Source of the DNA: an uncultured Oscillospiraceae bacterium
GTDB taxonomy: Bacteria; Bacillota; Clostridia; Oscillospirales; Oscillospiraceae
Reading direction: 5' to 3'
NCBI GenBank assembly: GCA_934572355.1
Contig: CAKTKV010000035.1
Span: 1-11,675 of the forward strand
Length of the DNA: 11,675 nucleotides
This document shows, in pieces, positions 1,716-10,333 of the stretch; position 1 is the first letter of the stretch, and each line of letters starts with the position of its first letter. The notes beneath the pieces are model-generated. The model was not told the origin of the DNA, ran no database searches, and saw only the letters and a list, made by a program, of their open reading frames with translations. Both the position numbers and the translations under genes were made by a program.

Positions 1716-3179
1716 ATGAAAGAAATGGATACGCGGCAGGGGAAAGACAGGACCCGCCGGAGACTGAAAGTAATACTGCTGGTGCTGCTGGCCTATATTG
1801 TCGCAATCGCGGCGCTGGCCGTGATAATAGACGCGCGCCACGTGCGCTTTTACGTGACGGGATCGGAGAGCATGACGCAGGAGTACGGCGAGGTGTACGA
1901 GGAACCGGGTGTATACGCTGTGACCTATGGCAAGCTTTTCGGCGAGGGGACGCAGCGCCTGCACGTCGCGACCGAGGGCAGCGTCGATACCACGAAGCTC
2001 GGCAGCTATACGCTTAAATACTGGACGCGCTGGATGTTCACGGACTATGTGACGGAGCGGCACGTCACCGTTATAGACACGACGCCGCCTGTTATAGAGC
2101 TCAGGCACATAGAGGGCTACGAGGCGAGCTGGATGGACGGCTACGAGGAGGAGGGCTACACCGCCTTTGACAGCTGCGACGGCGACCTTACCGCAAAGGT
2201 CGTGCGCACCGAGGATAAGGACAAGGTGACATATACCGTCACGGATTCATCCGGGAACACCGCGACCGCCGTGCGCGAGATAAAGTACGCGAAGACCGAA
2301 CCGCGCATCATCTTAAACGGCGACGAGAACATGATATTCACCGCGCGCACGGATTTCACCGATCCCGGATATACGGCGACGGACGGACTGGGGGATGACT
2401 TGACTTCCCTTGTGCAGGTGGAGAGCGACGTTGTGCCATATATCGCGGGGGACTATCAGATAGTTTACAGTCTCACGAGCGAGACGGGCGAGTCCGTCAG
2501 CGTGACGCGCAGCGTCACGGTCATTCCCGCGAACAGACCGGACGTTGTGAATCCCGATGGCAAGACGATCTACCTCACCTTTGACGACGGGCCGGGGCCG
2601 TATACCTCAAAGCTTCTGGACGTGCTGGCGGAGTATAACGTGAAAGCGACGTTCTTTGTCACGGCGGCAAACTCCAAGTACTATGACCTGATCGCCCGCG
2701 AGGTGAACGAGGGGCACTCCGTCGGCGTGCACAGCTACTCGCATAACTATAAGACCATCTACTCCAGTGAGGAGGCCTTCTTCAATGACTTCAACGCCAT
2801 GGAGGAGATCATATACGAGCAGACCGGCAGCTACACGCAGCTGTGCCGCTTCCCCGGCGGAAGCTCCAACACGGTCAGCAATTTCAATCCGGGCATAATG
2901 TCCCGCCTGACGGAAGCGCTCACAGACATGGGCTATAAGTATTTTGACTGGAACGTATCCTCGGGCGACGCGGGGGAGACGACAAAGACGGATGTCGTTA
3001 TCTCCAACATCGAGTCCGGCTGCCGCGGCATGAAAGCGGCAGTTGTATTGCAGCACGATATAAAGGACTTCAGCGTGAACGCGGTGGAGTCGGTCATAAT
3101 CTGGGGCTTGCAGAACGGCTACACATTCCGCGCCCTCGACATGAGCAGCCCCGACGCGCACCATGGGGTGAATAATTAA
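1716..3179 (+). CDS. Membrane-anchored polysaccharide deacetylase (NodB/CE4) with Ig-like repeats
   Basis: The 487-residue protein is predicted to remove N- or O-acetyl groups from a cell-wall or surface glycan (peptidoglycan or chitin-like polymer) outside the membrane. A basic N-terminus (RTRRRLK) is followed by one hydrophobic segment at about 17-39, a signal anchor with no obvious cleavage or lipobox. Residues about 48-270 form three Ig-like/DUF5011-style beta repeats, with the phrases DTTPPVI, DGDLT and TYTVTDSSGN. Residues 283-475 are the NodB domain: TFDDGP (288-293, metal-binding and catalytic Asp), HSYSH (339-343, metal His), RFPGG (378-382), DWN (411-413) and LQHD (445-448, catalytic His). 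All CE4 motifs are intact, so it should be an active metal-dependent deacetylase. The ATG at 1725 is an alternative start; GGAAAG at 1710-1715 sits better for that one. It is monocistronic, divergent from glyQS. The exact glycan cannot be told. Confidence 0.93.
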   Translation: MKEMDTRQGKDRTRRRLKVILLVLLAYIVAIAALAVIIDARHVRFYVTGSESMTQEYGEVYEEPGVYAVTYGKLFGEGTQRLHVATEGSVDTTKLGSYTLKYWTRWMFTDYVTERHVTVIDTTPPVIELRHIEGYEASWMDGYEEEGYTAFDSCDGDLTAKVVRTEDKDKVTYTVTDSSGNTATAVREIKYAKTEPRIILNGDENMIFTARTDFTDPGYTATDGLGDDLTSLVQVESDVVPYIAGDYQIVYSLTSETGESVSVTRSVTVIPANRPDVVNPDGKTIYLTFDDGPGPYTSKLLDVLAEYNVKATFFVTAANSKYYDLIAREVNEGHSVGVHSYSHNYKTIYSSEEAFFNDFNAMEEIIYEQTGSYTQLCRFPGGSSNTVSNFNPGIMSRLTEALTDMGYKYFDWNVSSGDAGETTKTDVVISNIESGCRGMKAAVVLQHDIKDFSVNAVESVIIWGLQNGYTFRALDMSSPDAHHGVNN

Positions 3180-3192
3180 AGCTAAATGAAAC

Positions 3193-3236
3193 AATTCCCC
3201 GGAGGCTCCGCATTGATGCGGAGCTTCCGGGGAATT
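3193..3236. terminator. Long bidirectional hairpin between convergent genes
   Basis: A 20-bp stem with a TTGA loop (3213-3216) has a left arm at 3193-3212 and a right arm at 3217-3236; the only imperfection is one G-T pair. It lies 13 bases after the deacetylase stop and 11 bases after the end of the reductase gene on the other strand. T-runs on either side are short (ATTTGCT on plus, ATTGTTTCATTT on minus), so termination efficiency is uncertain, but position and stem strength fit a shared terminator or 3'-end stabiliser. Confidence 0.75.
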
Positions 3237-3247
3237 TGCTATGTCTG

Positions 3248-5176
3248 TTATATCGCGAGGGCTGCGTTGAGAGCGTCGCCGGTCGCGAGCATGGAGTTGC
3301 CGGGAGCCTGGCGCGCTTCGCCGATGACTATTACCTGGGGCACGAGCTTTTCAAGCTCTGCCGAGAGAGTGTTATTGGAGCGGTAGCCCATCGCGAGCAC
3401 GATGCTGTCATAGCCGCGCAGCTCGTGTGTGCTGCCGTCAAGGGTACTCGTATAGGCGACGCCGTCAGTGAAGAACTGGCTGACACGGGCGTTCGTGAAC
3501 TGGCCGACCTTATGGTGCTCAAGGCTTGCCATGATGTACTTGCGTGGCTCGGGCATAATGTCCTCGCCGACAACGGGCTTCATTTCGACTATATCGCAGG
3601 CGTGGCCGCGCTCGGCAAGATGCTCGGCAGCTTCCGCGCCGACCATGCCGCCGCCGACGATGAGCACCTTCTTGCCGACATTATACTTACCGGTGAGCAT
3701 GTCCTCGGCGTTTACATACCCGCAGTCCGCAAGACCGGGAATGGGCAGGATAAGCGGCGTGGAACCGGTGGCGACAATGACGGCGTCGGGCTTGAGCTCA
3801 GTCACGAGCTCTGGCGTGACGGTGACACCGAGGCGAATATCGACGCCCGCTTCACGGCATCTGACTATGAGGCTGCGGATCGCCGGAGCGATCTCGCCCT
3901 TTGCGGGGGGATAGGAGGCAACAAGGAAGTGTCCGCCAAGCTCGGTGTTTTTCTCAAGGAGGATGACGTCATGGCCGCGCTTTGCGCACATCATCGCGGC
4001 GTACATACCGCTGGGGCCGCCGCCGATGACGAGCACCTTCTTCTGCACCTCGGCGGGGACGAGCTCCGCCTCACGGCCGACGCAGGGGTTCATCGCGCAG
4101 GTGATGGGGCGGCCGGCGAGCATGTTCGGCACGCATCCGAGCAGACACGCGATGCAGGGGGTGAGGGCCTCAAGATGGCCGGTGCGTGCCTTGACAGGCA
4201 GCTCGGGGTCAGCAATGGACTGACGGCCGAAGGCGACGAGGTCGGCTCTGCCCTGACGCACGAGAAGCTCGGCATACTGCGGCTCGGTATAGCGCCCGAC
4301 GGTGATGACGGGGATGGAGACAGCCTTCTTGATCTCGGTTACAAGATCGGCATTGAAGCCGCCGTGGGTGTTGTTCGGCGCCCACATGAACTCATCGTGC
4401 AGGTGGATGGAGCGGGAGACGTTGAGCGCGTCGACGCCGCACTCCTGCTCAAGATAGGCCGCGACTGCCGCCGCGTCCTGAACGGTCAGGCCGCCCTCGC
4501 CCTCATCACGCGCGTTTATGCGGCAGAGGATGGGCATGTTGCCGGTCTTGCGGCGGATGTTTTCGATGATGAGCCGGGGCAGACGCATGCGGTTTTCAAA
4601 GCAGCCGCCGAACTCGTCGGTGCGCTTATTCGTGCGCGCGGAGATGAAGGTGCTGACAAGGTAGCCGTGTGCGCAGTGTACCTCGACCATGTCTATCCCG
4701 GCTCTCTGGGCGCGGGCCGCAGCGTCGCCGTAGGCCTCGATGAGACGGTAGACCTCATCAGTCGGCATGGCGACGGGTATCTCGCCGCCGCAGTGGGAAG
4801 CCATAGCGCTTGCGGCCTTGAGCGGGTAGCCGGTGAGCTTGGAGTTGCCCTCGGGACCTGCGTGCTGGAGCTGGATGTTCACCTTTGCGCCGTAGCGGTG
4901 GCAGCGCTCGGCGACCTCGCGGAAGCTGTCAACAGTGTCGTCAGTGAAGAGACAGGGCTTTCTCGGACCGCCCTTGGCCTCAGAGTAGACGACGGTGGAC
5001 TCAATGGTGATGAGACCGAAGCCGCCCTTGGCGCGCGCCTCGTAATATGCCGCGGAGCGCTCGGAGATGGAGCCGTCGGTATTGGCAAAGTTGTTGCCCA
5101 TTGGCGGGACGACGAAGCGATTCGGAACGGTGACGGTACCGATCTGAATAGGGCTGAACATGGTGGGGAATTTCAT
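3248..5176 (-). CDS. NADH:flavin oxidoreductase, OYE family, 2,4-dienoyl-CoA/enoate reductase-like, 4Fe-4S
   Basis: The 642-residue enzyme is predicted to reduce a C=C bond next to a carbonyl or carboxylate with NAD(P)H through FMN, a 4Fe-4S cluster and FAD, in the cytoplasm. Residues 1-335 form the OYE (beta/alpha)8 barrel, with LQHAG (103-107), HCAHGYL (167-173; Tyr172 is in the position of the catalytic Tyr of E. coli FadH) and TNKRTDEFGG (182-191). The Fe-S motif is C341-x2-C344-x3-C348-x11-C360, the same spacing as FadH. An FAD loop GGGPSG is at 385-390 and a second dinucleotide loop GGGMVG at 508-513. Length matches the FadH, BaiCD/BaiH and enoate reductase class. It is the last gene of the LysR-linked cluster, 41 nt after the dehydrogenase, with AGAGGTG before the ATG. 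The context suggests an alicyclic or cinnamate-like enoate substrate. Substrate is inference; the family is secure. Confidence 0.93.
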   Translation of the reverse strand: MKFPTMFSPIQIGTVTVPNRFVVPPMGNNFANTDGSISERSAAYYEARAKGGFGLITIESTVVYSEAKGGPRKPCLFTDDTVDSFREVAERCHRYGAKVNIQLQHAGPEGNSKLTGYPLKAASAMASHCGGEIPVAMPTDEVYRLIEAYGDAAARAQRAGIDMVEVHCAHGYLVSTFISARTNKRTDEFGGCFENRMRLPRLIIENIRRKTGNMPILCRINARDEGEGGLTVQDAAAVAAYLEQECGVDALNVSRSIHLHDEFMWAPNNTHGGFNADLVTEIKKAVSIPVITVGRYTEPQYAELLVRQGRADLVAFGRQSIADPELPVKARTGHLEALTPCIACLLGCVPNMLAGRPITCAMNPCVGREAELVPAEVQKKVLVIGGGPSGMYAAMMCAKRGHDVILLEKNTELGGHFLVASYPPAKGEIAPAIRSLIVRCREAGVDIRLGVTVTPELVTELKPDAVIVATGSTPLILPIPGLADCGYVNAEDMLTGKYNVGKKVLIVGGGMVGAEAAEHLAERGHACDIVEMKPVVGEDIMPEPRKYIMASLEHHKVGQFTNARVSQFFTDGVAYTSTLDGSTHELRGYDSIVLAMGYRSNNTLSAELEKLVPQVIVIGEARQAPGNSMLATGDALNAALAI

Positions 5177-5217
5177 CTTATTTGCACCTCTTTTTATTTA
5201 ATCAATATCAGCCAGTT

Positions 5218-6090
5218 TCAGCTGAAGAACTTTGCGGCGACCTCGTCCTCCGGCATTTCCTTGCCGGTGAAGAGACGGAAGGCCTCAACGCCCTGCTGGA
5301 GCAGCATGCCGATTCCGCCGACGACGGTGCAGCCGGCAGCCGAGGCTTCCTTTATCATGCGCGTCTCACGGGGATTATAGACAGTGTCGGCAACGACGAG
5401 TCCCGGACGGTAGAGGGAGGGATCGACGAGCGTCTCGCCGTCCAGCGGAGCCATGCCGACCTTGGTGGCGTTCACAAGAATATCGCAGGACTTGACAGCC
5501 GCGGCGAAGGCTTCAGCATCGCAGAGGTCGTTTGCGGAAGCGTCGCAGCCGGGGACGTTCGCACGGATCTTGGCTACGGTGCGCTCGGCGTTCGCGTAGC
5601 CCTTGGAGGTCTTGCGGTTAAAGATGGCGAGCTTTGCAGCGCCGTCAAGCGCGGCCTGGATGGTGAGCGCGGTGGCAGCGCCGCCGGCGCCCATGACGAC
5701 GATGCTCTTGCCCTTGACGGAAACGCCGTGCTTTTCAAGGTTGCGCACGAAGCCTACGCCGTCGGTATTGTGACCGGTGAGCCTGCCGTCCTCACTGACG
5801 GTGACGGTGTTGCAGGCACCGATCATTTCGGCCGCGGGGGAGAGCTCATCGAGGTATTCGCACACGGCGGTCTTATCGGGCATGGTGATATTGAAGCCGC
5901 CGACATTCATGAGCTTCAGCGCCTTGACTGCGTCCTCGAGCTTTTCAAGAGGGACGTCAAAGGCGAGGTATGCGTTATTGAGACCAAGCTTGTCAAAGCT
6001 GTAATTGTACATTGCCGGGGAGCCGGAGTGCCCCACGGGAGAGCCGATCAGACAGAAAAGTCTGGTGTGTCCATCGATCCTGTTTTCCAT
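5218..6090 (-). CDS. aroE: Shikimate/quinate dehydrogenase, YdiB type
   Basis: The 290-residue enzyme interconverts shikimate and 3-dehydroshikimate (and probably quinate and 3-dehydroquinate) with NAD(P)(H). Substrate-binding SPVGHSGSP (17-25; Ser22 and Ser24 for the carboxylate), NITMPDK (68-74, catalytic Lys73 here), Asn94, NTD (108-110, catalytic Asp110) and Gln266 are all present. The Rossmann loop GAGGAA is at 134-139. NATKVGM (207-213) and the stretch CEYLDELSPAA resemble E. coli YdiB more than biosynthetic AroE. However, the cofactor loop reads NRKTSK (158-163), with a Lys where AroE has the Arg that grips the NADP phosphate and where YdiB has no positive charge, so NADP(H) is likely (from remembered alignments). 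Start ATG at 6090 has TGGAGGA upstream. It sits between the TIM-barrel gene and the reductase. A catabolic or peripheral role is more likely than aromatic biosynthesis, given the neighbours. If strict, the symbol ydiB could be used. Confidence 0.93.
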   Translation of the reverse strand: MENRIDGHTRLFCLIGSPVGHSGSPAMYNYSFDKLGLNNAYLAFDVPLEKLEDAVKALKLMNVGGFNITMPDKTAVCEYLDELSPAAEMIGACNTVTVSEDGRLTGHNTDGVGFVRNLEKHGVSVKGKSIVVMGAGGAATALTIQAALDGAAKLAIFNRKTSKGYANAERTVAKIRANVPGCDASANDLCDAEAFAAAVKSCDILVNATKVGMAPLDGETLVDPSLYRPGLVVADTVYNPRETRMIKEASAAGCTVVGGIGMLLQQGVEAFRLFTGKEMPEDEVAAKFFS

Positions 6091-6154
6091 GTTGTTTCCT
6101 CCATAACATCAGTTGTTTATTTGAGGCGAAGTTATGCCGTAACCTAAATATATA

Positions 6155-6238
6155 TCAAATCAAAGCCCAACGAAGTGGGTTTGATTTGAAAAGGAAGAAG
6201 GAGATTGCATAGTGCAGCTTTTGCCGCAAGGCAAAAGC
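6155..6238. repeat. Composite palindromic element inside the cluster (REP-like)
   Basis: The 165-bp gap between two otherwise closely packed genes contains two hairpins. The first (6155-6189) pairs CAAATCAAA with TTTGATTTG and CCCA with TGGG around a 6-nt loop, with one bulged G. The second (6217-6238) is a perfect 9-bp stem GCTTTTGCC/GGCAAAAGC closed by GCAA (plus strand). Neither is followed by a T-run in either direction, so they do not look like standard terminators. The shape fits a dispersed intergenic palindrome of the REP/MITE kind, possibly affecting mRNA stability between the upstream and downstream halves of the operon. A weak -10 like TATATT (6147-6152, minus) follows it, but no good -35 is visible. 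That it is repeated elsewhere in the genome is inference. Confidence 0.5.
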
Positions 6239-6255
6239 GGAACGGTGCAAGCTTC

Positions 6256-7098
6256 TTATGACGCGATCTCTGGCCAAGTCTTGGCGAGCAGCTCGGATAC
6301 CGCGTCAAAGTTTGCTTTTGCGGCGTTGGGGACGCCAGCGGCAAGGATAGCGTCATTGATGACCTCAACGCCAACGACGGCGGGGGAGACGCCCTTGGCC
6401 TTTATCATCTCGACAAAGCCAGCGGTGTGGCCGTAGCCCTTGCCGGGGAGCGCACGGTCGTGCATGGATTCATCGCGGAGTATCGCCGCGGCGTAGGCGC
6501 GCGCCTGCACGTCGTTGAGCTGGATGGAGACGATCTTCTCGGCGGGGATATCCGCCATGAGAGCGGGATCGTAGCTCTGCCCGGCTCGTATCCAGTGCCA
6601 TGAGTCGAGGATGAGCTTTGCGTTATCGCAGCCGGAGCCCTTCACGACCTCCCACGCCTTGCGTATTCCGGGAAGTCCGCTGTAGGGCATGGGCTCGACG
6701 CCGATGGTGTATTTTCCGGCGCGCTGGCACAGCTCCTTGAGTTTCTGTGCCGTCCACTCGACGGAGTAGTTCTCCATCAGGCCGCAGTTGATGTGGTTCA
6801 CGCCGAAGAGCTCGCACATGTGGAAGCACATCTGTTCCTTGTACTTCTCCTCGTAGGAGCGCTTTGCTTCCGCCCACTGGACAATGTACTCGACCTCGGT
6901 GACGCGCATGGAGTACTTGTCGAGAATGGCGAGGATGTCGCTGTCAAAAAGACCTTCGTTCAGTGCGTCCACATAGGTTTCGGCGCGCAGGCCGATACCC
7001 TCAAAGCCCGCGGCCTTCGCCGCGCTGACGCGCTCTTCAAAGCTGCACTGATCGCCGAGGGTCCATGAACTGACGGTAATGGGATGCTGTTTACTCAT
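6256..7098 (-). CDS. Sugar phosphate isomerase/epimerase-like TIM barrel (AP endonuclease family 2)
   Basis: The 280-residue protein belongs to the xylose-isomerase-like TIM barrel superfamily, which includes hydroxypyruvate isomerase, inosose dehydratase (IolE) and 3-dehydroshikimate dehydratase (AsbF/QuiC types). Candidate metal ligands are Glu135 (GVEP), Asp165 and His168 (LDSWHWIR), Gln193 (IQLND) and Glu245 (GVEV). The IQLND and LPGKG (217-221) phrases resemble the subgroup with Gln in place of the fourth His. No signal peptide or membrane segment is seen. Its start has TGGAGGA upstream, and it follows the MFS gene by 18 nt, so the two are surely cotranscribed. Next to a quinate/shikimate dehydrogenase, dehydration or isomerisation of a dehydroshikimate-like intermediate is a reasonable guess, but the family is too broad to name the reaction. 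It occupies the place where related loci in other bacteria carry aroD. Confidence 0.87.
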   Translation of the reverse strand: MSKQHPITVSSWTLGDQCSFEERVSAAKAAGFEGIGLRAETYVDALNEGLFDSDILAILDKYSMRVTEVEYIVQWAEAKRSYEEKYKEQMCFHMCELFGVNHINCGLMENYSVEWTAQKLKELCQRAGKYTIGVEPMPYSGLPGIRKAWEVVKGSGCDNAKLILDSWHWIRAGQSYDPALMADIPAEKIVSIQLNDVQARAYAAAILRDESMHDRALPGKGYGHTAGFVEMIKAKGVSPAVVGVEVINDAILAAGVPNAAKANFDAVSELLAKTWPEIAS

Positions 7099-7116
7099 TT
7101 CTTTATTCCTCCATTT

Positions 7117-8340
7117 TTATTCTGCACTGACCGGCTGCGTCTGCACTGCCGTGTCAATGTCTATGCGTTTGTTGAGAATGACTGCGAGGATGACGCCGAT
7201 AAGCGTAACCGACATATTGAAAAGCAGAACATATCGCGGGCCGTTCACACCGGAGACGCGGGTTATAAGGCTCGCGGCGTTCAGAACGGCGTAGTTTGCG
7301 ACGCTCGAAGCGATCATGACTATCGAGGTGATGACGCCGCGGTTCTTGGGGAACATCTCGTTTGCGACCGAGGTGACGAGCTGGAGCACGCCGCCCGCCG
7401 CGAAGAAGCCGATGAAGAAGCCGCCGACCAGACAGACTGCCGGAACCTGAACAAGGAAGACGACGGCAAGAGTAACGAGTGCGCAGGACGGATATATGAT
7501 AAGGATCTTGGCGGGCTTCAGACCCTTATTGAGAAGCGCGGCGTTTATGAAGATGGCCGCGACGATGCCGAGAGAGTACCAGGTCTGGATCATGCTGGGG
7601 TTAGAAAGCCCGTACAGCGCGCCAAGCTCCTGATTGCAGTTCATCCAGAGCATGAAGGTCGTGGAGCTTGTGAAGCCGAGGGCGACGAGGATCGCCGCCG
7701 AGGGAGTGAAGCGCAGCTTTTCCCTCTCGCCGGTTTCATGCTTTGCCGCGAGCTCCCGCTGAGGGAAGGGGAGGAACACGATGGCGATGCCGTCAAGGAT
7801 GATGATAAGCGCCGCGGCGAGGAACACGGTGTTAAACGGCAGACCGTGCCGGTCGACGGCGAGCATCGCAAAGGGCAGGAGAAACTGAGAGAGAGATATG
7901 GCAAGCTTCGTGAAGATGTTTGCGATGGTGCCCTTCTCCTTGAATATCTCCATGCAGGATGGGGTGATGCTGGTATCGAGGAAGGAGTTGCCCATGCCGC
8001 TCACGACGGCGAGGGCGTAGCCCCAATACATGCTTTTTGTGAACGTGATGCCGGCGAAGAACACGGCGAACAGCGCGCAGCCGACGAGGGCGGATATCCT
8101 TCTGCCGAGCTTATCCGAGAGCGGCCCCGCAGCGGGGAAGGCTATCAGCTGCCCGAGGCCGATGGCGGCGATGACCGCGACGACGGAGGAGATATCGTAC
8201 ATTCCGTCCGCGCCGGGAAGGGCACCCCAGAGTGCTGCGAACTCCTGCTTGTAGTGTCCCATGACCGATGAGGATATGCCAAGCGCAAAGTAAGTGATGT
8301 ACAGCGCGAGGGCTGTTGGGTAGTAGCGTTTTTGGCTCAT
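7117..8340 (-). CDS. MFS transporter, YdiN/YdiM-like, probable organic acid uptake
   Basis: The 407-residue protein is a polytopic membrane carrier of the major facilitator superfamily with about 12 hydrophobic helices. The loop-2/3 motif A is GPLSDKLGRR (72-81). A hydrophilic central loop lies at about 192-212 (QRELAAKHETGEREK). Phrases such as GMGNSFLDT (115-123), GFFAAGGVLQL (311-321) and NEMFPKNRG (327-335) resemble E. coli YdiN/YdiM as I remember them; ydiN is encoded next to ydiB in E. coli. It is the promoter-proximal gene of the four-gene cluster, with AGGAGA before the ATG and lysR divergent. This placement suggests that it imports the substrate of the downstream enzymes, probably with protons. 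Family certain, substrate inferred. Confidence 0.92.
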   Translation of the reverse strand: MSQKRYYPTALALYITYFALGISSSVMGHYKQEFAALWGALPGADGMYDISSVVAVIAAIGLGQLIAFPAAGPLSDKLGRRISALVGCALFAVFFAGITFTKSMYWGYALAVVSGMGNSFLDTSITPSCMEIFKEKGTIANIFTKLAISLSQFLLPFAMLAVDRHGLPFNTVFLAAALIIILDGIAIVFLPFPQRELAAKHETGEREKLRFTPSAAILVALGFTSSTTFMLWMNCNQELGALYGLSNPSMIQTWYSLGIVAAIFINAALLNKGLKPAKILIIYPSCALVTLAVVFLVQVPAVCLVGGFFIGFFAAGGVLQLVTSVANEMFPKNRGVITSIVMIASSVANYAVLNAASLITRVSGVNGPRYVLLFNMSVTLIGVILAVILNKRIDIDTAVQTQPVSAE

Positions 8341-8387
8341 CTCTTTTCTCCTGTTCTATGAATTTGTTTCCGGGTGTCGTTGTCTAA

Positions 8388-8416
8388 AACGTAGCACGTT
8401 GTGCTTTATTTAACAA
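8388..8416 (-). promoter_or_regulatory. Candidate promoter of the MFS-led operon
   Basis: On the minus strand TTGTTA (8411-8416, four of six to the -35) is followed after 17 bases by TACGTT (8388-8393, three of six to the -10). The start would fall near 8381, about 40 nt before the MFS ATG. The weak -10 fits an activator-dependent promoter, and the LysR-type box centred at 8445 would sit near -64, the usual place for a LysR recognition site. Several other AT-rich hexamers in the region could serve instead. Confidence 0.4.
8393..8405. promoter_or_regulatory. 13-bp inverted repeat AGCAC-GTT-GTGCT
   Basis: A perfect 5-bp inverted repeat with a 3-bp spacer lies in the lysR/MFS intergenic region, between the LysR box and the MFS gene and overlapping the spacer of the candidate MFS promoter. 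It could be a second operator site, either an activation half-site for the LysR protein or a site for another regulator. Confidence 0.4.
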
Positions 8417-8437
8417 ATTGATTTAATGAATAAAACG

Positions 8438-8452
8438 ATAGATTTTTTCTAT
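8438..8452. promoter_or_regulatory. LysR-type box ATAG-N7-CTAT (T-N11-A)
   Basis: ATAGATTTTTTCTAT is a perfect inverted repeat that fits the LysR-family T-N11-A consensus, placed between lysR and its divergent target operon. It overlaps the expected -35 region of lysR (its -10 would be TATACT at 8467-8472), which fits negative autoregulation. It lies near -64 of the candidate MFS promoter, which fits inducer-dependent activation. Confidence 0.7.
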
Positions 8453-8466
8453 TGTTTGTGTAATAA

Positions 8467-8472
8467 TATACT
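8467..8472 (+). promoter_or_regulatory. Candidate -10 of the lysR gene
   Basis: TATACT (five of six to TATAAT) stands 24 bases before the lysR ATG, with AGGAGG at 8482-8487 between. The matching -35 region is the T-tract inside the LysR box, a poor hexamer. The start would be near 8479, giving a short leader. Confidence 0.45.
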
Positions 8473-8496
8473 CATCGGAAGAGGAGGCGCATAAAG

Positions 8497-9381
8497 ATGA
8501 ATCTATCGCACCTGAGGTACTTTGTCCGCCTTGCGGAGACACGGCACTACACCAAGGCCGCCGAGCAGATGTACATATCGCAGCCGAGCCTGAGCCATGC
8601 CATAGCGCAGCTTGAGCAGGAGCTGGGCGTGCCGCTGTTTGAAAAGAGCGGGCGCAATGTTGAGCTTACGCAGTTTGGCGAGGTGTTTCTCAAGCAGGTG
8701 CGCCAGCCGCTGGAGATCCTCGACGGGAGCGTTGACTATCTGCACCGCATCGCCGCGGGAAACGGCGTGGTGCGCCTCGGCCTGCTGCGCACGCTGGGAG
8801 TGGAATATGTCCCGGCGCTCGCGGCAAGCTTCAAGCGGCAGAACGCAGATAAGAATGTGGACTTCACCTTTTTCACGGGCGTGACTTCGGACATTATGCA
8901 CAAGCTGCAAAGGCACGAGTTGGACATTGTGTTCAGTTCCAAGGCTCCGGAGGAGTATAAATTCGAGTCTATCCCCATTAAGAAGCAGGACCTTGTGCTC
9001 ATCGTTCCGCCGGATCACCGGCTTGCGGCGCGGCACACGGCGGAGCTTTCCGAGGTGCTGGACGATCCGTTCATCCAGTACGCGCACGGTTCGGGGCTGC
9101 GCCACGTCGTGAACGATATGTTCGCGCAGATCGATGCGGCACCCAAGGTCGCGTATGAGATACAGGAGGATCAGGTCATCGCGGGGCTCGTCGCGCAGGG
9201 CTTCGGCGTATCGGTAGTCCCGTATATGGAAATGCTGCTGCGGCTGAACGTGAAGATATTGCAGATATCGCGCCCGATACCGAACCGGATGTTCTACCTT
9301 GTGACCGACCCGGCGATGACGCTTTCTCCGGCAGCGGCGGACTTCAAGCGCTTTGTCCTGTCGCAGAGCGAAGGACGATAA
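8497..9381 (+). CDS. LysR-family transcriptional regulator of the divergent cluster
   Basis: The 294-residue protein has the standard LTTR length and layout. An N-terminal winged helix-turn-helix spans about 1-60, with the recognition region AAEQMYISQPSLSHAIAQLE (21-40) and the conserved PLFEKSGR (46-53) and LTQFGE (57-62). A linker helix is followed by a periplasmic-binding-protein-like effector domain from about residue 92 (VRLGLL...), containing ELDIVF (141-146) and VAQGFGVSVVPY towards the end. It should bind the ATAG-N7-CTAT box and sense a small organic acid, most simply the substrate or product of the divergent MFS/dehydrogenase/reductase cluster. The start is fixed by GAGGAGG nine bases upstream. 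It is single-gene and ends before a strong terminator. Confidence 0.95.
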   Translation: MNLSHLRYFVRLAETRHYTKAAEQMYISQPSLSHAIAQLEQELGVPLFEKSGRNVELTQFGEVFLKQVRQPLEILDGSVDYLHRIAAGNGVVRLGLLRTLGVEYVPALAASFKRQNADKNVDFTFFTGVTSDIMHKLQRHELDIVFSSKAPEEYKFESIPIKKQDLVLIVPPDHRLAARHTAELSEVLDDPFIQYAHGSGLRHVVNDMFAQIDAAPKVAYEIQEDQVIAGLVAQGFGVSVVPYMEMLLRLNVKILQISRPIPNRMFYLVTDPAMTLSPAAADFKRFVLSQSEGR

Positions 9382-9438
9382 TAGATAACGATAGCTGAAT
9401 ATGATGTTTTAATAGATTTTCTGCATGAATATATAAAC

Positions 9439-9485
9439 AAAAAATCGCCCAGGAAGTTGTGCAAAACTTCCTGAGCGATTTTTTT
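9439..9485. terminator. Bidirectional intrinsic terminator between lysR and folD
   Basis: A 20-bp stem with one C/A mismatch and a GTGCAA loop (9459-9464) has an A-tract at its left end and a seven-T tract at its right end (9479-9485). Both strands therefore read as hairpin plus T-run. It lies 57 bases after the lysR stop and 5 bases after the folD stop on the opposite strand, so it serves both convergent transcripts. Confidence 0.93.
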
Positions 9486-9490
9486 AATTC

Positions 9491-10333
9491 CTATTTCCCG
9501 TATATATGCTGCTTTGCCGCGGCGAGGATGTTGCGCATCAGCATCGCGCGCGTCATCGGGCCGACGCCGCCGGGCACAGGGGTGATGTACGCCGCGCGCC
9601 GGGCGGCCTCGTCAAACACAACGTCCCCGGTGAATTTTCCGGTCTCGGCATCGCGGTTCATCGCAACGTCTATGACCGCCGCGCCGGGCTTTATCATTTC
9701 CCCGGTAATGAGCCCCTTGTGTCCCGCCGCGACGACGAGGATATCCGCCTGACGCGTGAACTCCGCGAGCTTCGGAGTGCGGCTGTGGCAGGAGATCACC
9801 GTGCCGTTTGCGCGCAGGAGCATCATGGCCATGGGCTTTCCGACTATGTTGCTGCGCCCGACCACCGTGCAGACCCTGCCCTCGACCGGTATCTCATAGG
9901 CGCGCAGCATCTCCATTATCCCCGCCGGGGTGCAGGGCAGCAGCACGGGCTTCCCCGCGGAGAGACGCCCGACGTTTACCGGATGGAACGCGTCCACGTC
10001 CTTCTCGGGGGAGATCGCCTCAATTATCGCGTCCTCGTCAATGTGCTCCGGCAGCGGCAGCTGAACGAGTATGCCGTCTATCTCCGCATCGCGGTTCAGC
10101 GCGGAGATAAGCTCAAGCAGTGTTTCCTGCGTGACGGTATCGTCAAATTTATATTCGCGGCTCATAAAGCCGCACTGCTCACAGTCGCGCTCCTTACCGG
10201 AGACGTATATGCGCGAAGCGGGATCGTCCCCGACGAGCACGACCGCAAGCCCGGCTTTGCGCGGGAGCGCTGCCGCCTCGCGCGCAGTTTCCTCGCGCAC
10301 CCTCTGCGCAAGCGCCTTGCCGTCTATCAGCAT
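9491..10333 (-). CDS. folD: Bifunctional methylene-THF dehydrogenase / methenyl-THF cyclohydrolase
   Basis: The 280-residue cytoplasmic enzyme oxidises 5,10-methylene-tetrahydrofolate with NADP and hydrolyses the methenyl product to 10-formyl-THF, for purine and formyl-Met synthesis (in acetogens, the reverse direction). Landmarks are YVSGK (43-47, catalytic Tyr and Lys47), DGILVQLPLP (86-95), KDVDAFHP (111-118), GRSNIVGKP (159-167, Rossmann loop) and PGGVGPMT (254-261). The frame opens at 10369, but the ATG at 10333 is chosen because GGAGG lies seven bases before it and MLIDGKALA is the usual FolD start. It overlaps the stop of the upstream GH13 gene in the sequence ATGCTGA, so translation is likely coupled. 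It ends just before the shared terminator. No odd residues seen. Confidence 0.97.
   Translation of the reverse strand: MLIDGKALAQRVREETAREAAALPRKAGLAVVLVGDDPASRIYVSGKERDCEQCGFMSREYKFDDTVTQETLLELISALNRDAEIDGILVQLPLPEHIDEDAIIEAISPEKDVDAFHPVNVGRLSAGKPVLLPCTPAGIMEMLRAYEIPVEGRVCTVVGRSNIVGKPMAMMLLRANGTVISCHSRTPKLAEFTRQADILVVAAGHKGLITGEMIKPGAAVIDVAMNRDAETGKFTGDVVFDEAARRAAYITPVPGGVGPMTRAMLMRNILAAAKQHIYGK

Follow-up and report, generated by a model that had tools for sequence, protein, structure and literature searches.

A candidate shikimate/quinate catabolic cluster in Clostridia, akin to the Listeria Lmo2234 locus and linked to a dedicated Fe-S flavoenzyme

Introduction

The DNA considered here, an 11,675-nucleotide stretch from an uncultured Oscillospiraceae bacterium (hereafter the window), carries at positions 3248..9381 a set of genes whose joint purpose is the question of this study: a carrier of the major facilitator superfamily (MFS), a xylose-isomerase-like TIM barrel, a shikimate/quinate dehydrogenase (SDH) and an Fe-S flavin oxidoreductase of the Old Yellow Enzyme (OYE) type, with a LysR-type regulator diverging from them. 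A sequence-only reading had proposed a mainly reductive pathway for a shikimate- or quinate-type acid. Here we compare the cluster with its relatives in other genomes and regard it as a clostridial member of the Listeria-type shikimate/quinate cluster. That such an acid would be turned into protocatechuate seems likely to us; the fuller picture, a LysR-controlled catabolic operon of the Listeria QuiC2 type in which the OYE would re-oxidise the cofactor, we hold with rather less assurance, but still favour.

Chlorogenic acid from coffee and fruit releases quinic acid in the gut. One paper states that knowledge of the enzymes that degrade quinic acid there 'is mostly lacking', and names two proposed routes, one oxidative and leading to protocatechuic acid, the other reductive and leading to hexahydrobenzoic acid (PMC11602726). 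For the protocatechuate route in Clostridia, the window and its kin offer a small group of candidate genes, to which a subfamily of flavoenzymes is tied.

The cluster and its Listeria counterpart

The open reading frames (ORFs) and their Pfam domains bear out the arrangement that had been read from the letters alone: MFS, TIM barrel, SDH and OYE genes run head to tail on the minus strand, and the LysR gene is divergent. The spacers within the run are 41, 165 and 18 bp, in order of coordinates, and the divergent gap is 156 bp.

The same five gene families, ordered LysR, then TIM barrel-OYE-SDH-MFS-MFS, occur at two loci (L116 and L142) whose TIM barrel matches Lmo2234 at 100% identity, and at the other Listeria-like loci. 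The window differs both in order (MFS-TIM barrel-SDH-OYE) and in having one MFS gene rather than two. Identities between the proteins of L116 and those of the window are 52% for the TIM barrel, 59% for the OYE, 55% for the SDH, 52% for the MFS carrier and 48% for LysR. QuiC2 is reportedly a published class of dehydroshikimate dehydratase in Listeria, and from the title of that paper we infer that Lmo2234 is QuiC2 and that the window's TIM barrel belongs to its class. The earlier statement that no named system has this exact gene set therefore falls, as does the idea of a wholly unnamed set, which we rejected on the same Listeria-like loci.

Linkage across genomes

A first scan gave six loci. 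Five genome samples were then used, which overlap and each include their own seed genome; the genomes with a match at 1e-20 numbered 4 of 391, 3 of 398, 12 of 397, 22 of 301 and 38 of 395. In all, 75 neighbourhoods were mapped (L001-L006, L053-L068, L072-L091 and L114-L146). A divergent LysR gene stands together with an SDH, an OYE or a short-chain dehydrogenase/reductase (SDR) in 67 of them: 34 have LysR, OYE and SDH, 29 have LysR, SDR and SDH, two have LysR and SDR, and two have LysR and SDH only. One further locus has OYE and SDH with no divergent LysR seen, and seven lie in another context. Of the 68 linked loci, 58 have an MFS gene within this run and in its direction. Linkage of the cluster genes is thus beyond chance.

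Counting as OYE any protein scoring above 450 bits to that of the window, and as SDR any with more than 50% identity to the SDR of L006, 35 of the 75 loci have the OYE, 31 have the SDR and none has both; in Lactobacillaceae the SDR occupies the place that the OYE takes in Clostridia and Listeria-like genomes. More distant OYEs do occur near some SDR loci (e.g. L078, L122, L132). In a TIM-barrel tree with 67 members, from which the partial rows L055, L137 and L138 and the near-identical Listeria-like rows L140, L141 and L143-L146 were left out, the SDR label requires three changes and the OYE label two. This implies few independent swaps, so that the exclusivity of OYE and SDR is largely a clade effect. 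In the TIM-barrel gene tree the window groups with Enterocloster alcoholdehydrogenati (L004, 99/89) and with a metagenome-assembled genome of Clostridia (L001, 99/92); judged by this gene alone, a clostridial host is probable. A shikimate kinase gene lies within the L001 cluster.

Proposed pathway

In the pathway that we propose, the MFS protein would import a shikimate- or quinate-type acid and the SDH would oxidise shikimate to 3-dehydroshikimate, giving NAD(P)H, or alternatively quinate to 3-dehydroquinate, with the dehydroquinase AroD encoded elsewhere. The TIM barrel would then dehydrate 3-dehydroshikimate to protocatechuate, and the Fe-S OYE would use a hydroaromatic enone to re-oxidise the cofactor; the simplest candidate is 3-dehydroshikimate itself (C1=C2-C3=O), structurally an enone and so of the usual OYE substrate type. 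Some of the acid would thus end up aromatised and some of it reduced. Reduction of a cyclohexene acid by the OYE is plausible, most simply of 3-dehydroshikimate; that the enzyme spends NADH on this enone such that the pathway balances its own redox is a more tentative proposal, to which we give slightly less than even chances. Gene content, the dedicated linkage, the conserved active site and the LysR box are observations, while all substrates and the direction of each reaction are inferred.

The substrate type named by the sequence-only reading is probably right, given an SDH near a shikimate dehydrogenase of known structure, a LysR near Lmo0488 and a dehydratase-like TIM barrel (all described below). 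Its mainly reductive pathway fares less well, the TIM barrel being best read as an aromatising enzyme, a route absent from that reading; what is left of the reductive proposal is the likely function of a single enzyme. As to the point of entry, a type I dehydroquinase is present in five of the first six genomes, and AroD was not significantly enriched with the cluster among the clostridial genomes compared (11 of 14 with it, 23 of 40 without; P = 0.21). Most hosts could therefore start from quinate, but this ability does not go with the cluster, and shikimate is the safer choice of first substrate.

A flavoenzyme subfamily dedicated to the cluster

The OYE gene (3248..5176, minus strand) encodes a FadH/OYE-type protein of 642 aa with PF00724 (Oxidored_FMN) and PF07992 (Pyr_redox_2), and has in common with FadH, BaiCD, bilirubin reductase and the mycofactocin OYEs an FMN barrel, the 4Fe-4S cysteines and an FAD/NAD domain. 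The four cysteines (C341-x2-C344-x3-C348-x11-C360) are invariant in all 36 aligned OYEs, as are H167, H170 and Y172. An HxxH with a tyrosine is the carbonyl-binding set of YqjM-like OYEs; in the alignments, both histidines of the HxxH at 167-170 are absent from FadH and NCR. No NCBIfam equivalog admits the protein, which falls below the cut-offs for BaiCD (490 of 825 bits), bilirubin reductase (459 of 750) and the mycofactocin OYE (494 of 793).

The protein belongs to a subfamily dedicated to cluster-bearing genomes. We compared 54 clostridial genomes, 14 with the cluster and 40 without, the latter from the family of G004. In all 14, the best match to the OYE profile adjoins the TIM barrel, with scores of 1113-1193 bits in 13 genomes and 763 in G166, where the match is partial (profile positions 1-388). 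Among the 40 cluster-free relatives the best score is 565 bits, and only 12 match at all at 1e-100. Since cluster OYEs went into the profile, some gap in score is expected; the gap observed is wide. For two Listeria OYEs, lmo2471 and lmo0489, reactions and substrates are still to be elucidated according to passages of one paper (PMC10269891). The OYE adjoining Lmo2234 is a further one, unmentioned in those passages, and the portions of the open-licence PubMed Central literature available to us name no substrate for the cluster subfamily.

Could the OYE act on something other than the hydroaromatic acid? Enoate reductases are found among Fe-S OYEs of like build, and the cluster might serve the use of chlorogenate-type esters, the quinate part going to protocatechuate and the OYE acting as a 2-enoate reductase on the freed hydroxycinnamate (caffeate or cinnamate). 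The Clostridium drakei locus, in which an alpha/beta hydrolase (BD-FAE, L002:18397-19353) adjoins a further SDH, would fit such a diet. By Pfam, however, the window cluster has no esterase, and in the Listeria-like and the tested clostridial genomes the OYE is a companion of the TIM barrel and the SDH; we consider this explanation unlikely, though the likeliest of the rival readings.

Lactobacilli convert quinate and shikimate into dihydro products, though searches of open-licence PubMed Central gave no paper on this. Near their clusters, often beside an SDH-AroD pair, lies a fumarate-reductase-like flavoprotein (572-585 aa, FMN_bind + FAD_binding_2; L074, L075, L076, L077, L080, L082, L088, L091 and L135), a layout that occurs in C=C reductases. 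Within three genes of the 22 AroD ORFs in the regions analysed, three of them from regions taken around AroD itself, we found a flavoprotein of this fumarate-reductase-like kind nine times, a more distant OYE five times, both never and neither eight times. The pattern agrees with, but does not show, modules that carry an ene-reductase spending the NADH made by SDH. Anaerobic use of shikimate and quinate in Firmicutes might be a redox split that balances itself, one molecule being oxidised and aromatised to protocatechuate while 3-dehydroshikimate from another is reduced by an ene-reductase dedicated to this task, namely the OYE in Clostridia and Listeria and the flavoprotein plus SDR in lactobacilli. 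We put this forward as a possibility with perhaps one chance in three. If true, it would supply genes for a reductive branch of gut quinic-acid metabolism.

The TIM barrel as a probable dehydratase

The aromatising step would fall to the TIM barrel (6256..7098, minus strand; 280 aa; AP_endonuc_2), a probable 3-dehydroshikimate dehydratase of the QuiC2 class. Its nearest solved relative is Listeria Lmo2234, at 51-52% identity (51.8% over 278 columns). From dehydratases of the QuiC1/QsuB type it is distant, with 20% identity by fold alignment; those are two-domain proteins of more than 600 aa, and the window protein is without their C-terminal dioxygenase-like domain. It matches NCBIfam NF042435 (QuiC) only in part and under the cut-off (45.5 of 1200 bits). 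Of eight QuiC1 active-site residues that could be mapped, seven are identical (E135, D165, H168, Q193, S211, R215 and E245), the mismatch being L136 to M137, and R64 and L97 have no mapping.

Three residues follow the genomic context. R38, Y71 and S211 are invariant in all 68 full-length linked rows (the window and Lmo2234 counted) of an alignment from which the partial rows L055, L137 and L138 had been dropped. Seven homologues in another context, without LysR, SDH, OYE or SDR (L125-L128, L133, L136 and L137), stand apart; the neighbours of L127 include genes for an aldo-keto reductase, an amino-acid permease and a zinc ABC transporter. The six that are full length (L125-L128, L133 and L136) all have T or S for R38, C for Y71 and A for S211. 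Thus active-site and nearby residues change where the SDH partner is lost, and these six probably have a different function. A guess would be that R38 binds the carboxylate of dehydroshikimate.

Alternatively, the protein could be an IolI-like isomerase, shifting a keto group on a hydroxylated ring such that the products would be reduced alicyclic acids and no protocatechuate, which would come closer to the sequence-only reading. IolI ranks above QuiC1 by family profile and ties with it by fold (a re-inspection of Foldseek's own matches only), and the metal ligands and D-x-x-H motif are found in IolI as well in the alignment. Against this, QuiC1 S206 and R210 are kept as S211 and R215, with S211 lost where SDH is lost, and the protein has 51-52% identity to Lmo2234, from the genus of what is, by its title, the published QuiC2 class; we consider the isomerase improbable, a little more so than the use of chlorogenate. 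A dehydroshikimate dehydratase yielding protocatechuate remains the best reading of this sequence. Protocatechuate made for a siderophore, as by AsbF in petrobactin synthesis, is very improbable and was rejected after the fold comparison and a Pfam scan of nine window proteins, none of which is a siderophore protein, and the carrier, SDH and LysR suit uptake and catabolism rather than that role.

Two variants of the family were seen in passing. In P0086 (416 aa; PF01261 + PF01202) a TIM barrel of this family is fused to a shikimate kinase domain, and in the Listeria-like genome G1636 (L138) the TIM-barrel gene is in two pieces.

Dehydrogenase, carrier and regulator

The SDH (5218..6090, minus strand; 290 aa; PF08501 Shikimate_dh_N + PF18317 SDH_C) is YdiB-like. 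It exceeds the aroE cut-off of TIGR00507 (222 against 200 bits) and falls just under that of PRK12548 (420 against 432). Its closest solved structure is shikimate dehydrogenase 3tnl (E = 1e-82); YdiB (1npd) matches over most of the protein (E = 3e-73), but the YdiB equivalog PRK12749 is missed (258 of 349 bits) and, unlike YdiB, the window SDH is in an operon with a dehydratase. K73 and D110, which we take to be the catalytic residues, are invariant in all 11 aligned rows. An aspartate after NxK/NxM, said to favour NAD in YdiB, is shown by nine of the ten other aligned rows; the window SDH has NRKTSKGY without it, and its cofactor may therefore differ. The carrier (7117..8340, minus strand; 407 aa; PF07690 MFS_1) would probably serve acid uptake.

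The regulator (8497..9381, plus strand; 294 aa; PF00126 HTH_1 + PF03466 LysR_substrate) has as its best PDB match 5ted, Lmo0488 (E = 3e-36 over residues 89-289), which is presumably QuiR, the regulator of the Listeria qui operons, with shikimate as ligand. The LysR adjoining Lmo2234-like genes is a different one from Lmo0488, and is 45-50% identical to that of the window. The operator named in the sequence-only reading is a perfect palindrome, ATAG-N7-CTAT, at 8438..8452 (strandless) in the divergent gap, a form of LysR box and a candidate for the site bound here. Of 68 divergent LysR regions, 13 contain a box of this class (ATAS-N7-STAT, complementary arms), whereas 200 shuffles gave 0.95 on average and five at most; for this count the loci took in the adjoining 40 bp of coding sequence at either end, and near-identical loci were retained. 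The class is missing from the other 55, including every Listeria-like divergent gap. No sigma-70-like site was found in the divergent gap of the window; 3150-9500 holds three, with 2.5 expected.

Surroundings and further observations

By Pfam, the flanking genes encode a class II tRNA synthetase, which we read as glycyl-type, an Ig-like/polysaccharide deacetylase protein, FolD and an alpha-amylase-family protein. GC content (guanine plus cytosine) is 0.58-0.63 in the cluster genes and 0.58-0.64 in the flanking genes. ARAGORN found no tRNA in the window, nothing exceeded the Rfam gathering scores, and no terminator-like site was found where the OYE and deacetylase genes converge.

Within 20 kb, Clostridium drakei (L002) has LysR genes, two OYEs, AroD, several SDHs, the TIM barrel, carriers and the BD-FAE hydrolase, a large shikimate/quinate locus. 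Proteins of 458-502 aa from one family adjoin seven clostridial clusters (L057:14734-16170; kin at L056, L058, L061, L062, L065 and L066); no Pfam or NCBIfam match to this family was found, one member of 478 aa having been scanned against Pfam. On the minus strand, the 165-bp spacer that separates the TIM-barrel gene from the SDH gene contains a strong stem-loop at 6156-6188 (caaatcaaa-ccca...tggg-ctttgatttg), which is not a T-tailed terminator. Between the LysR and folD genes, at 9439-9484, lies a long stem-loop; it has T runs on both strands and is likely a two-way terminator.
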